34,071 nt of DNA from Verrucomicrobiota bacterium (GTDB taxonomy: Bacteria; Verrucomicrobiota; Verrucomicrobiia; Limisphaerales; J093), in NCBI GenBank assembly GCA_022710935.1, contig JAKLFY010000069.1, positions 1 to 34,071 of the forward strand. Reading direction: 5' to 3'. The translations under genes and the position numbers were made by a program. Positions 1,187 to 33,950 of this stretch are shown here, in pieces. Under the pieces are notes generated by a model that saw only the letters and a program-made list of their open reading frames with translations, made no database searches and was not told the origin of the DNA. Position 1 is the first letter of the stretch; each line of letters begins with the position of its first letter.

Positions 1187-1402
1187 CGTGTCTACATTCC
1201 GTGTATTCATGCCCTTTGGCAAGCCGACAGGCTCCCGACAGGCCCCCGTCGGTGCCTCTTGGTTGTTGTCGGTCTTCTGTCGCCCGGTGAGGGCACCGGG
1301 CCTGCACCGGATGGAGACTCCCGCTGTAGACCTGTGCCGCCACGCGGCGCAAACTGGATTCCCACCGACACCCCCCAGATGCACTGGGTCCCCGTGTGCC
1401 CC

Positions 1403-4400
1403 TCACTCCGGTGGGGACACAACCTCGATGCGCGCAGCCACATCGCGAGCGAAGGGCGGGACAGCGATCCGCGCGGCCCCATGAACAACGTCGAGCGTCT
1501 CTTCCCCCGTCACCAGGCCGTGGCGCGTGTCCCACCACTGCACCCGGCTCGGCCCATCGGGCCAGCCCTTCAGATCGAACTCGGCCCCCTGGACTTCTCC
1601 CGGCTCCTGCTGGGGAACGCGAGCCAGGCCGGCCCACCCTGCAGCGCGATGAAACAGCCACACCCACGCGCGATTGCGGGTCCTCAATACCACCAAACGC
1701 ACTCGGTCCTCCGCGGTCAACCCAACCGACGCCTCCAGACCGCCGGCGGTCCAGGGAACATCCCTCAGAAACCGACTCAGCGGCTTGTATGCGGGATAGG
1801 CGTTCTTCTGGTCGAGACGCTCCCACCACCAGGCCAACGCCGTGCCCGATGCCCCCGACAGAGCGGATGCCCAGAGTGCGTTGTGGAAATCCGCCAGTTC
1901 CGGACTCTGCTTCATCAGATCCGTGATCCGCCATTGGTTGTCTGCCAAGCCGAACTCACCCAGGAACGCCGGCTTGTGCGGAGCGTGCTCGCGAAGCCAG
2001 CGCGCTCGATCGAGCACAGCCTCGACCTCGTCGGCAAGCCGGGCCGCGTCGGACGGACGCAGATAGAAATGCGTGTCGGCCAGATCGAGTTTCGGATGCC
2101 GGCAATCCCGTGCAGACGGGCCCCAGGTGCTGGTTGTTCTCAGATGATGATAGACATCCGTGACCTCCAGGTCGTCGCCCAGGGCCCTGTAAAACCGATC
2201 CGTCGGCAAACCTGGATTCATCTCGTTCCAGTACTCCCACGCGGCCACGCTTGTCGACCAACCCCACCGGGCCACGGCGTACCGCATCAACCTCCTTGCA
2301 TCGGCAATTGCGCGATCGTACTCGCCGCTCGCAGGATCCTTCAGCGCGTTCATATACAGATCGCGCGTGAGCAGAACGAGCTGGAGATGCAGGCCGTGCC
2401 TCTCGGCGCTCGATACCACCTCGTCCAACATGAAACAGTCCAACGGATTGTACCACCCGCGCGCCGGACGACTGACATCGGCCTCCCAGAGCAGCTCAGG
2501 CTCGCCATCCGCCTCTTTCAACGACACGTCCGCGATCCATGCCGCGCCACCGCCTTCGAGCCTGAACCGCACCGGATCGAGCCAGTGCTCCTCGCCTCCC
2601 GTCGCAAACTCCTTGCGGAACTCGAACCACACCGGCTCGCCGGTCGAGGCTGGCAACTCCTCGAACGAACGGCCCTGCAGCCCGACTTCGAGCCGCCCTC
2701 CGCCTTCGACACGCCCCTTGCCCCGAAGGATGTACCGTGTCTTGGGCCTCAGCGCGACCGGATGCGACGGATTGGCCTCGATCGACGGACGATCCCGCGA
2801 CAAGCGCAGGCATTTCCTGCCCGACGACTCGTCCCCAGGCATCGGCACAAAGGGCGGACGCCAGTCCCAGGAGCGTCCCCAGGCGCTCTTGCGCGCTTCG
2901 ATCGCCATCGCCCAATCCTCGCAACATGCCCACACACGCAGATAATTCGCGCCGTTCGCGTTGAGCTGCGCAAAGACCTCCTCGACCCGGCCGAGCGTGA
3001 CATGCTGACTGTTGCCGATGAACGCCAGGTTTTGCCCGATTGGGAAAAAAGGCCGCCCCTCCGAGAACTCGAGAAACCGCGGGTCCTTCGTGCTCACCCG
3101 CACGAAGCCCGGACGCGCTGAATCCCTGACGCAAAATCGGACTGCGCCGGAACGGAACACGCCACGCGCGTCCGAAACGCGGGCGACGGCCAGATGCGAG
3201 CCAAGTTCGCCCGACGCGAATCGCGCCTTCCATCCGGCTTGGCCTACCGGATAGACCCAGTCGCGCTTCTGCCCGCCGAGCCCCAGGCGCCGATGCTCGA
3301 AGTCCTGGGCGTAGAACCCCGGCACGGCAAGCAAACGCCCGCCCGGCGTCGTCACCTCGAGGTCGACCCGGACCTCATCCGGGTCAAACGGACACACGTA
3401 GGTCGTCGGCAGTTGGAGACGAAACTCGACCTTCTCATACTTGCCGACATCCGGATTCAGACACTCGAGTCCAACGCCTTGCGGGGAACGGGCAGGCTCA
3501 GACTCGATCGAGGCAGGCACGGGTTCGAATCCGGCCCGCTTTAGACCTCGATGGATCACCGGATTGCCCCGCAAGCGATCCCAAACCCGCCCTGTCCGGT
3601 GATTCTCGATCATCAGCAGGATCGGTCCCTGATCGATGCCCAGCACGTCCGAACCCCACCAGTCCGCCTGAAGATTGAATGCGTCGCGAAATCCGTACGG
3701 ACTCCACAGTCGCGTGCGATAGTTGTTGTCGAGGTTTCGGAGCACGGCGAGCGACTCCGCCGGCGTGAATGGGATCGACCCACCAGCCGCGGTTGGCGCA
3801 ATCGTCCCGTCGTCGTTCTCCGGAGGCGGCACGCCTCGAGCCGAATACCCCTTGGGCCCATCGCATGCGGTGAATCCCCAAAGGTCCGGTCCGTACCCGG
3901 CGAAGCATCCGGGATTGGCAACAGCGTACGCTTGTTGGGCCAATGTCGCCCGACGCGAGTTTTCGAAATACGTGATCCCTCGGCTCCGCATCGGGGCGTC
4001 GGCGACGGCCCGCAGATCGATCCAGCATTGCGTGTATTGATGCCCGATCGTGCCGGCTGGGGCGTCCCCTTGGGGTCTTTCCCAGAATGTGCGAAGCGTC
4101 GTCAACACGCGCGCGCGCCCCTGCTCACGCGTGATCCAACCGTGATCGATGCCAATCCCAATCGCCGTCAGACCGAAGCCGACGGCGGCGATACTGCAAA
4201 AGGAGGTCGGTGTGCTCCGATCGCGCACCAGGCCGTTGGTCGGATTGGCCTCGCTCCAGAAGTAGTTGAAAGCCGACGCCTGAAGCAGTTCGAGGAAGTC
4301 CCCGTCACTCGCCATCGATTCCCCTCCGGGCTCAACAGATCGCGACCCGGACGACGCCCCTGGCCTGTCCGCCGGTCTCTCGCCCCCCCCGCTCGGGCGA

Positions 4401-4501
4401 CCGACCTCGACCGGCCCCGCGCAGACAATGGCCTCCATCCCGCGAAGCAGCACAGCCATCGCACAGGCGACCGACCAGAACTCGAGACGCATAACGCCCA
4501 C
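1403..4501 (-). CDS. Secreted multidomain glycoside hydrolase: deleted glycoamylase-like domain, DUF5060, GH5-type TIM barrel
   Basis: A 1,032-residue exported protein with a signal-like N-terminus (hydrophobic residues about 6-28). Residues 65-330 match the glycoamylase-like family (PF10091): FNYFWSEANPTNGLVRDRS, GFGLTAIGIGIDHGWITRE, TYFENSRRATLAQQAY, LWGFTACDGPKGY and LGIDQGPILLMIENHRTGR. The middle of that domain is missing: the text passes from ERPQGDAPAGTIG straight to HQYTQCWID (about residue 153). Residues 350-475 resemble DUF5060 (KYEKVEFRLQL, PFDPDEVRVD, RPGFVRVS). The rest is a cellulase/mannanase-type TIM barrel with EYWNEMNP (Glu760, likely acid/base) and AFLGEFG (Glu849, likely nucleophile). 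It is interrupted at about residues 560-665 by a beta-rich, CBM-like insert. The likely role is degradation of a plant or microbial beta-glycan in the periplasm or outside the cell. GTG 4501 is chosen because GAGG lies six bases upstream; ATG 4492 is the alternative. Confidence 0.82.
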   Translation of the reverse strand: MGVMRLEFWSVACAMAVLLRGMEAIVCAGPVEVGRPSGGGERPADRPGASSGSRSVEPGGESMASDGDFLELLQASAFNYFWSEANPTNGLVRDRSTPTSFCSIAAVGFGLTAIGIGIDHGWITREQGRARVLTTLRTFWERPQGDAPAGTIGHQYTQCWIDLRAVADAPMRSRGITYFENSRRATLAQQAYAVANPGCFAGYGPDLWGFTACDGPKGYSARGVPPPENDDGTIAPTAAGGSIPFTPAESLAVLRNLDNNYRTRLWSPYGFRDAFNLQADWWGSDVLGIDQGPILLMIENHRTGRVWDRLRGNPVIHRGLKRAGFEPVPASIESEPARSPQGVGLECLNPDVGKYEKVEFRLQLPTTYVCPFDPDEVRVDLEVTTPGGRLLAVPGFYAQDFEHRRLGLGGQKRDWVYPVGQAGWKARFASGELGSHLAVARVSDARGVFRSGAVRFCVRDSARPGFVRVSTKDPRFLEFSEGRPFFPIGQNLAFIGNSQHVTLGRVEEVFAQLNANGANYLRVWACCEDWAMAIEARKSAWGRSWDWRPPFVPMPGDESSGRKCLRLSRDRPSIEANPSHPVALRPKTRYILRGKGRVEGGGRLEVGLQGRSFEELPASTGEPVWFEFRKEFATGGEEHWLDPVRFRLEGGGAAWIADVSLKEADGEPELLWEADVSRPARGWYNPLDCFMLDEVVSSAERHGLHLQLVLLTRDLYMNALKDPASGEYDRAIADARRLMRYAVARWGWSTSVAAWEYWNEMNPGLPTDRFYRALGDDLEVTDVYHHLRTTSTWGPSARDCRHPKLDLADTHFYLRPSDAARLADEVEAVLDRARWLREHAPHKPAFLGEFGLADNQWRITDLMKQSPELADFHNALWASALSGASGTALAWWWERLDQKNAYPAYKPLSRFLRDVPWTAGGLEASVGLTAEDRVRLVVLRTRNRAWVWLFHRAAGWAGLARVPQQEPGEVQGAEFDLKGWPDGPSRVQWWDTRHGLVTGEETLDVVHGAARIAVPPFARDVAARIEVVSPPE

Positions 4502-4683
4502 GCCCGCCCTCTATACCGCGCTCGCCTGCACGTTTCACCACTTTTTGCCACCGCGAAGCCGGAGTTCACAAGAGAAGTCAGCATGCAGGCTGGGAAAAGC
4601 CCGGATTTCGTTGTCATCTTCCCGGTCGTGAGAAATCCGGGGACGGCCAAGGGAAGCCGCCTCTTTTCGGTGCAAAAAAGTCA

Positions 4684-5332: not shown

Positions 5333-6811
5333 ATGCCCAATCGCCTCACCGTCTGCGATTTGTCCCAGCTCCTTTCCCGGCGGGAATTGAGCGCCCGCGA
5401 GGCGACCCAGGCGTGTCTCGATGCCATCCGGCAGCGCGATCCTCTCGTGCGGGCATTTCTGCATGTGGACGAGGCGGGGGCTTTGGCACAGGCGGATGCC
5501 GCGGACGCAGCCCGTCGACGCGGGAAGAGTGCGGAAACACACCCGCTCCTGGGCGTTCCGCTGGCGATCAAGGATGTCATCGCTGTTCGCAACCAGCCGC
5601 TGACCTGCGGATCGCGCATTCTGGCACAGTACATTGCCCCCTACGACGCCACCGTCACGACGGCGTTGCGCAGGGCGGGCGCAGTCTTCTTGGGCCGACT
5701 GAACATGGACGAGTTCGCGATGGGAAGCTCGACGGAGAACTCGGCGTTTGGCCCGACGCGGAACCCCTGGGATACAACCCGGATTCCGGGAGGGTCCTCG
5801 GGCGGCTCGGCCGCCGCCGTCGCCGCCGACGAATGCAGCGCCGCGCTCGGGTCGGACACCGGCGGTTCGGTCCGGTTGCCGGCCGCGTTTTGCGGCGTGG
5901 TGGGCCTCAAGCCGACCTACGGACGCGTCTCGCGTTACGGGTTGGTGGCGTACGCGTCCTCCCTCGACCAGGTCGGGCTGCTGACCAAGACGGTGCAGGA
6001 CGCCGCGCTTCTGCTCGAAACCGTGGCTGGGCACGATCCCCTCGATTCAACCAGCGTGCCGCAGCCGGTGCCGCCCTATGTTGCCGGCTTGGACCAGTCA
6101 GTCGCCGGATTGAGAGTCGGCCTGCCCCGAGAGTACTTTGTCCAAGGGGGTCTCGACCCCGAGGTCAGACACTCCGTCGAGCAGGCCATCGCCCAACTCG
6201 AATCCCTCGGCGTCAAACCCGTCGAGGTCTCGCTTCCGCACACGCGCTATGCCCTGGCCACCTACTACTTGATCGCTCCCGCCGAGGCCAGTGCCAACCT
6301 CGCCCGCTTCGACGGCGTCCGGTACGGCCTGCGCATCGACGGGGCGGACCCGATCGAAATGTACGCGCGGACGCGTGGCGCCGGCTTCGGGACGGAGGTA
6401 AAGCGGCGCATCATCCTGGGCACATACGCTCTGAGCAGCGGTTACTACGACGCCTACTACCTCCGCGCCCAAAAGGTCCGGACCCTGATCCGCCAGGATT
6501 TCCTCGACGCCTTCAAGGAAGTCGATGCCGTCCTGACGCCGACCGCGCCCACGCCTCCATTCAAGCTCGGCGAAAGGCTGGCGGACCCGCTGCAGATGTA
6601 TCTGTCCGACGTCTTCACGATCTCCTGCAACCTCGCCGGCATCTGCGGGCTGAGCCTGCCATGCGGCTTCACAGCCTCCCCCAAACTCCCGATCGGAATG
6701 CAATTGCTCGGACCGCCCTTTGGCGAGGAGACCCTGCTCCGACTCGGGCACGCCTTCGAGCAATCGACGGATTGGCATCGCCACCGCCCGCCGCCGCGAA
6801 CAGGAACTTGA
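5333..6811 (+). CDS. gatA: Asp-tRNA(Asn)/Glu-tRNA(Gln) amidotransferase subunit A
   Basis: A 492-residue amidase-signature enzyme of normal GatA length. It hydrolyses glutamine and supplies ammonia to the GatB kinase site. The Ser-cisSer-Lys triad is visible: Lys80 in VPLAIKDV, Ser155 in [13 protein letters not shown], and the nucleophile Ser179 in [31 protein letters not shown] and the C-terminal LSLPCGF are typical of the family. The start ATG lies 12 bases after gatC. An imperfect hairpin follows about 30 bases after the stop. Normal composition and intact motifs give no sign of decay. Confidence 0.96.
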
Positions 6812-6843
6812 CTCATTTGCCACAGATTTCGTCCGGGGAGTAA

Positions 6844-6896
6844 CTTCAGCCCGGAAATCTCAAGCTGAGACGATGACACAGATTTCCGGACTGAGG
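6844..6896. repeat. Imperfect inverted repeat after gatA, possible terminator
   Basis: Arms of 17 bases, CTTCAGCCCGGAAATCT (6844-6860) and AGATTTCCGGACTGAGG (6880-6896), pair at 15 positions around a 19-base loop. There is no T-run, so a classical intrinsic terminator is not shown. The position between convergent gatA and the O-antigen ligase gene fits a transcript-end hairpin or a repeat element. Confidence 0.45.
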
Positions 6897-7023
6897 CAAA
6901 ACCGCGTCTGAACAGTCGCTCTCCACGCCAGTCGCCCGCGCGGTCTCGCACCTGACCCTGCAACCGTTGCGGTTGCCGGCGGACCGCGAGCGACTCCATT
7001 TCATAATCCCTTGCACGGCCCCC

Positions 7024-7072
7024 CATCTCCGATCTCCGATCTCCGATCTCCCATCTCCCATCTCCCATCTCC
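7024..7072. repeat. Seven tandem heptamers (CATCTCC/GATCTCC)
   Basis: Seven 7-base units, one CATCTCC, three GATCTCC and three CATCTCC, run without a break into the stop codon of the O-antigen ligase gene at 7072. Shorter arrays of the same units occur at 28083-28117 and 33808-33835. Confidence 0.85.
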
Positions 7073-28010: not shown

Positions 28011-28082
28011 AGGAAAACCAGCCGCCTTAACGCACGTGTGTGAGCGAGAGAGCCGGCTCCGGCCGTTGGCCACACAGTCCCC

Positions 28083-28250
28083 CATCTCCCATCTCCGATC
28101 TCCCATCTCCGATCTCCCCCGGAGGCTGACCAATTGCGACCTCCGGAAAGCCCATGCCGCGAAAGCCCGCAACCTCAGCTCGACCACCCCCGACAACCGC
28201 CTCCCCAGCCGTGCCATCTGTCAGTAGTGTGGACTCGACCCCATTGCCTT
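28083..28250. repeat. Composite repeat, copy 1 (heptamers, transposase-start-like segment, core A)
   Basis: Five CATCTCC/GATCTCC units (28083-28117) lead into a segment shared with 33808-33950. Common words are TGCGACCTCCGGAAA, CCCCCGACAACC and CCTCCCCAGCC. It ends with core A (28219-28250, TGTCAGTAGTGTGGACTCGA then CCCCATTGCC). On the minus strand the segment reads MARLGRRLSG, the same opening as the transposase stub at 28781. Confidence 0.7.
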
Positions 28251-33722: not shown

Positions 33723-33807
33723 CGACGCCTTGAACCGCAATGCTGCGCACCGATCCGTTCAGCTTGCCCGCATCCTGCGCAAAACCTCCGTCATCCGCTC
33801 TGGCCCC

Positions 33808-33950
33808 CATCTCCGATCTCCCATCTCCGATCTCCCCCGGAGCCTGACCGATTGCGACCTCCGGAAACCCCTGCCTCGAAGATCCCAACCCCAGGACGAC
33901 CGACCCCCGACAACCACCTCCCCAGCCCCGCCGTTTGTCAATAGTAGATT
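33808..33950. repeat. Composite repeat, copy 2
   Basis: Four CATCTCC/GATCTCC units (33808-33835) are followed by the same segment as 28118-28224, ending with TGTCAATAG. The second half of the core (CTGACCCGATTGCC) is absent. The remaining bases to 34071 show only a short palindrome (GTTACGGTAAC at about 34016) and no gene. Confidence 0.7.

Follow-up and report, generated by a model that had tools for sequence, protein, structure and literature searches.

A putative fusion of two glycosidases in a Verrucomicrobiota genome, with a PF10091 domain shortened in frame at a probably eroding locus

Introduction

The described proteins closest to the first half of the gene discussed here are the GH144 enzymes XcSGL and CpSGL (structure 5gzh), which relate to the PF10091 family, the nearest solved relative being XcSGL (XCC2207) in the complex of its E239Q mutant (8xul). 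In the work on these enzymes (PMC12102758), residues E239, F286 and Y367 of XcSGL are named as the defining residues of the clan (GH-S), with E239 acting as the general acid and Y367 stacking on the glucose in subsite -3, while the activity of the E211Q variant of CpSGL (E211 being the equivalent of E239) is described as drastically reduced, and an acidic residue equivalent to E142 of CpSGL is presented as the most plausible base. The closest described relative of the second half is ManDH5, a GH5 beta-D-mannanase from Dictyoglomus thermophilum (9gmj, 9gpa, 9gpc).

The window analyzed here is a stretch of 34,071 nucleotides, contig JAKLFY010000069.1 (contig C226 in our numbering) of a 7.5-Mb Verrucomicrobiota assembly (GCA_022710935.1) of 259 contigs. 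On its minus strand (1403..4501) it carries a gene of 1032 codons, with neither stop nor frameshift, whose predicted product of 1032 amino acids joins a truncated PF10091/GH144-type domain to a ManDH5-type, GH5-like enzyme. Compared to XcSGL and CpSGL, the truncated domain is homologous over both of its whole flanks (E-value of 1.7e-55 to 8xul), it superposes on their barrel and it retains the equivalent of Y367, but it lacks approximately 140 residues, including the counterparts of E239, F286 and the base candidate, leaving an incomplete barrel, and it is fused to a GH5 partner. The GH5-like half shares its overall fold with ManDH5, along with E303 and the second catalytic glutamate, but it is longer, with an extra beta domain inserted at approximately residues 550 to 690 (as read from the unaligned profile range), and it is positioned behind the PF10091 remnant. 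Long multidomain proteins are also present among PF10091 carriers: of five long open reading frames (ORFs) that were scanned, four combine the domain with DUF3131 and CBM9, but in these the PF10091 domain is complete from position 2 or 3, and none of the five long ORFs possesses a GH5 or a DUF5060 partner.

The fused gene and its two halves

All parts of the gene are encoded on the minus strand. The PF10091-type domain is represented by an N-terminal piece (residues 62-152; 4046..4318), delimited through alignment with 30 full-length homologues, and by a C-terminal piece (residues 153-330; 3512..4045), followed by a fusion linker (residues 331-343; 3473..3511), delimited by comparison with the separate genes described below, and by the GH5-like half (residues 344-1032; 1406..3472), which consists of a DUF5060-like N-terminal domain, the inserted beta domain, a (beta/alpha)8 barrel and a C-terminal beta domain. 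Pfam recognizes PF10091 at residues 153-313, where only profile positions 58-220 of 221 are covered, and this partial match still scores 192.2 bits, against a gathering score of 27. The DUF5060 model scores 23.2-24.1 bits at residues 352-435, under its cut-off of 27.2. A search against NCBIfam and one of the whole window against Rfam returned no match. A joint alignment of the two halves (A1) was badly mixed and was left out.

The gene unites two glycosidases, each of which has its own gene in the relatives examined. In another Verrucomicrobiota genome (G012) the two halves match separate genes on different contigs (C294 and C148), with 64-68% identity for the PF10091 half and 56% for the GH5 half; as in the fused gene both domain types are present, but here the barrel is intact and each protein has an N-terminus of its own. 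The PF10091 proteins of this genome and of genome G005 stop just past the counterpart of residue 328, and the separate GH5-like proteins begin, with their own N-terminus, ahead of the counterpart of residue 340. What is missing at the fusion point is the PF10091 stop, any spacer, and the start and the N-terminus of the GH5 gene. ORFs of both types at one locus were found at none of 28 GH5-like loci and none of 31 PF10091-like loci (the flanks inspected varying in length), and a motif search of one further region (L105) revealed no long PF10091 ORF. The PF10091/GH144-type, endo-beta-1,2-glucanase-like domain is probably secreted.

The GH5-like half is well preserved. Its predicted model (pLDDT of 91.9) finds ManDH5 as the best fold match (Z-score of 38.3, rmsd of 2.5, 509 residues aligned, 27% identity), a match that covers both the (beta/alpha)8 barrel and the DUF5060-like beta domain. 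Residues E760 (2222..2224), the putative acid/base, and E849 (1955..1957), the putative nucleophile, align with the WEFWNE and GEFGL motifs of ManDH5, the pairing of E760 with E303 having been counted by eye, and each is a glutamate in 26 of 26 homologue rows. One of the 116 conserved columns of this half is broken. From fold and residues, this half is probably still made and active, on beta-mannan or a related glycan. The preliminary description of this locus had called the C-terminal catalytic domain intact, which holds at the conserved positions, but this domain does not belong to PF10091 and corresponds to a separate GH5-like gene in the relatives.

Interspersed repeats adjoin the gene on both sides. 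A repeat of approximately 138 bp lies directly downstream of the stop (1250..1387, no strand assigned); it has at least 41 matches in the window's genome (40 of 220 candidates having been scored) and dozens in the sister species considered below. A repeat of approximately 80 bp lies directly upstream of the start (4517..4600, no strand assigned) and is found in several places in the sister genome. Elsewhere in the window, short segments (7019-7072, 28078-28118 and 33804-33836) match a tandem array of the GGAGAT type in the sister species, where the array adjoins the amidase gene (approximately 4360-4510 of locus L042).

The deletion in the PF10091-type domain

In the window's protein the sequence GDAPAGTI152 passes directly to G153HQYTQCWID, the join falling between bases 4046 and 4045 (junction codons at 4043..4048, minus strand). 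The counterparts of I152 and G153 are separated by 137-164 residues in 31 homologous ORFs, most commonly by 140 (14 of the 31), and by none in the window. These lengths were measured in ORFs of the fetched loci that match both flanking pieces of the first domain, the 31 ORFs representing 30 distinct genes (L018 and L046 are one gene). Eight more ORFs were left out as partial or split: four stem from a single gene that appears two times, split over two frames (L019/L049), three are cut short (L056, L077, L082), and the alignment of one did not separate (L057). This split gene is a PF10091 homologue of genome G019, and its division over two frames points to a possible frameshift or a sequencing error. 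The preliminary description had placed an in-frame loss of the middle of the domain between 4020 and 4075, with the reading frame kept, and the join between I152 and G153 bears this out, as does the alignment with full-length proteins, in which the segment is present in all 30 distinct genes and absent from no homologue. The FYHFLD-type motif that was expected within the lost stretch does belong to it, as the homologue alignment shows, while the size first proposed, approximately 200 residues, was an overestimate.

The consequences for catalysis can be read from the alignment with 8xul, in which the residue numbers follow a constant offset of 14, counted by eye in the printed alignment. E239 corresponds to the glutamate of the GYNE motif, F286 to the phenylalanine of LFGHQY and Y367 to the tyrosine of YxARG. 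The general acid position is a glutamate in 30 of 30 homologues, the base candidate, in the SSID motif, is an aspartate in 30 of 30, and the F286 position is a phenylalanine in 29 of 30; all three fall into the gap in the window. The SSID aspartate is matched to E142 of CpSGL by spacing and through alignment with 4gl3, not from CpSGL itself, and is thus a putative counterpart. The Y367 position, a tyrosine in 30 of 30 homologues, is maintained in the window as Y219. With the general acid, the base candidate and F286 all lying in the missing segment, the N-terminal half is no longer able to act as the enzyme: judged by its sequence, the glucanase center is gone and this half cannot work as a GH144-type glucanase.

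The AlphaFold2 model of residues 60-340 is confident overall (pLDDT of 88.4, pTM of 0.87), with values below 50 at the join (model residues 88-95, corresponding to residues 147-154), and it superposes on 8xul with a Z-score of 30.5 and an rmsd of 2.0, aligning 265 of 442 residues, in agreement with an (alpha/alpha)6 barrel that is short of approximately 140 residues. As the input alignment (A3) consisted of 30 homologue rows, all of them intact, this model demonstrates descent and not stability of the partial barrel. The structure prediction proposed in the preliminary description thus placed both pieces on the barrel, but the join is modeled poorly and stability of a partial barrel does not follow from it.

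The missing segment was sought across all contigs of the window's genome and in the sister genome G001 and was not found, while the same query matched three positive controls (G002, G012 and G003); a segment split off or moved elsewhere was rejected on this basis. It was also considered whether other lineages lack the segment naturally. In a scan of 320 genomes of the order (95 matching, the window's own included) and in a scan of 387 genomes of the phylum (43 matching, own included), only the window's row, among the matches listed, spans the whole query (1-269), and no homologue naturally devoid of the segment is present among the 31 ORFs in which the gap length was measured. A third lesion, the loss of an N-terminal domain, was considered as well. 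The homologues in G002 and G012 possess approximately 80 extra residues ahead of the barrel ("FN3-like" being our own label), but some homologues (L061, L065 and L067 among them) also have short N-termini, and this candidate was dropped.

As to how the segment may have been lost, the left edge in most homologue rows reads G-x-I-G-[YH]-[RK]-G-W-F-Y-H-F and the right edge P-L-F-G-H-Q-Y, with GTI|GHQY remaining in the window, and a G-H motif is common to both edges in many homologues, with one to seven bases identical in register. RecA-independent deletion at short direct repeats is described in PMC5426353. Slippage between the edge motifs is plausible, but it is a guess, as the two edges share only one to seven bases in the homologues. 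The in-frame nature of the join is not improbable in itself, being expected once in three times at random.

The sister species and the age of the loss

Along the genes for HPr, GatC, an amidase (GatA-like) and genes beyond, the genome of the sister species (G001) has the same gene order as the window, with identity of approximately 91%. Its copy of the fused gene is reduced to a fragment of the GH5 half, the counterpart of bases 1733-2609 (877 bp, 89.4% identical, without gaps; codons 632-922). Bases 2610-4670, covering the first two thirds of the gene, are swapped for approximately 180 unrelated bases (6675-6852 of locus L042) that have no match in the window, and bases 1381-1732 are gone, the fragment therefore abutting the 138-bp interspersed repeat.

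The 292 codons present in both genomes give a dN of 0.071 and a dS of 0.275 (ratio of 0.26), while 13 other ORFs of the window show dS of 0.21-0.33 and ratios of 0.07-0.25 (16 ORFs were compared, and three that are antisense to likely genes, with ratios of 0.87-2.56, were set aside). Of the 40 amino acid differences, 17 could be polarized to the G001 side and four to the window side, with 19 remaining ambiguous, and of the 91 conserved columns in the shared stretch, 12 are broken in G001 versus two in the window. Given these 12 versus two broken columns and 17 versus four changes, decay is under way in the G001 copy, and in the window the GH5 half has been maintained by selection.

The remnant itself breaks none of 98 conserved columns (columns with the same residue in no less than 93% of the remaining rows), while the 30 intact homologues break between zero and 13 each, seven of them none. 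A simulation that assumed 0.125 neutral changes per site after the species split (half of a dS of 0.25) predicts 23 broken codons in a remnant left unconstrained from that split onwards. A free sequence would show no break with a probability of 0.002 after a quarter of the split time, of 0.07 after a tenth and of 0.26 after a twentieth. The remnant has thus been without selection for at most about one tenth of the time since the split. The absence of breaks indicates either a very recent loss, or a remnant still under selection, or a genome that in fact carries an intact gene, and it agrees with a loss so recent that no new function could have taken shape yet.

Alternative explanations

The last of these possibilities amounts to an assembly artifact, in which the genome would possess an intact PF10091 domain and the contig would have been misclosed where coverage was interrupted, through a short word common to both sides. 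An intact gene would be expected to break none of the 98 positions, similar IGH and FGH motifs are present at the edges, and the genome is split into many contigs, all of which speak for such a misclosure. However, the missing segment is present on no other contig, the window contains no N, and the shared word would be at most about nine bases, presumably below the k-mers of assembly. The window also passes through the 138-bp repeat, with at least 40 genome places, with the right neighbors on either side, as indicated by two G001 contigs; these lie on either side of the repeat and both stop there, which supports the order of the window contig. We consider an artifact unlikely. More improbable still is the proposal that the fused gene is in its entirety a pseudogene of recent origin, with fusion and deletion both being symptoms of decay and neither half being used. 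The decaying fragment in the sister species, the repeats on both sides of the gene, and the loss of the N-terminus of the GH5 gene at the fusion are in line with it, but the 1032 codons are open where the simulation predicts approximately 1.3 stops in a tenth of the split time and 11.9 over all of it, the GH5 half is conserved as described, with both catalytic glutamates kept, and both joins are in frame.

The preliminary description had further suggested that the N-terminal part may now serve as a binding or scaffold module instead of an enzyme, and the first element of this suggestion stands, in that the active-site segment is absent, while the new role is not supported: no sign of retained or new binding was seen, and the truncated form is present in no relative examined. 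Repurposing of the remnant, which would now assist the GH5 enzyme by binding or scaffolding and no longer by catalysis, could draw on the confident helices of both pieces, superposing on the solved barrel, on the kept reading frame, and on the retention of Y219, whose counterpart is the residue reported, in the work cited above, to stack on the subsite -3 glucose in XcSGL. However, a model built on aligned intact homologues inherits their fold, with the join predicted poorly, the truncated form is present in no other genome among the matches listed, and unbroken residues needed for the lost chemistry point to recency and not to a new role; we regard such repurposing as very improbable. Equally remote, in our estimate, is the more specific proposal that the barrel, with about two thirds left after the in-frame loss, has been kept under selection as a non-catalytic part that targets or stabilizes the fused GH5 enzyme; if it were true, this would be a very young pseudoenzyme domain caught at birth.

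Conclusion

The explanation we favor, and consider probable, is that a fused gene, at a locus undergoing erosion, has recently suffered an in-frame deletion, so that a catalytically dead glucanase remnant stands ahead of a probably active GH5 enzyme. Two glycosidases with separate genes in the relatives examined, one of the PF10091/GH144 type and one of the ManDH5 type (GH5 with the DUF5060-like domain), are fused here, and the first domain would very recently have lost approximately 420 bp in frame, the probable mechanism being slippage or annealing of strands at the IGH and FGH motifs, which resemble each other. Gone with this stretch are the general acid, the base candidate and a residue of one subsite, making the first half catalytically dead, and the remnant would be a passenger without a function of its own. 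The compared sequences show that the two halves are fused, where the loss lies and how large it is, which residues it took, that the remaining sequence is conserved and that the copy in the sister species is decaying, while occurrence of the deletion in the cell, and not in the assembly, is what we infer. Literature searches on glycosidase pseudoenzymes produced nothing close, and those on DUF5060 with glycoside hydrolases produced unrelated work only.

If the deletion is real, this gene presents a snapshot of the death of an enzyme domain, with the active site gone and the conserved surroundings all in place, and this locus in the sister species would show decay one stage further on. For the PF10091 family more generally, an annotation, even one as strong as the match observed here (192 bits), is no guarantee of a working beta-1,2-glucanase.
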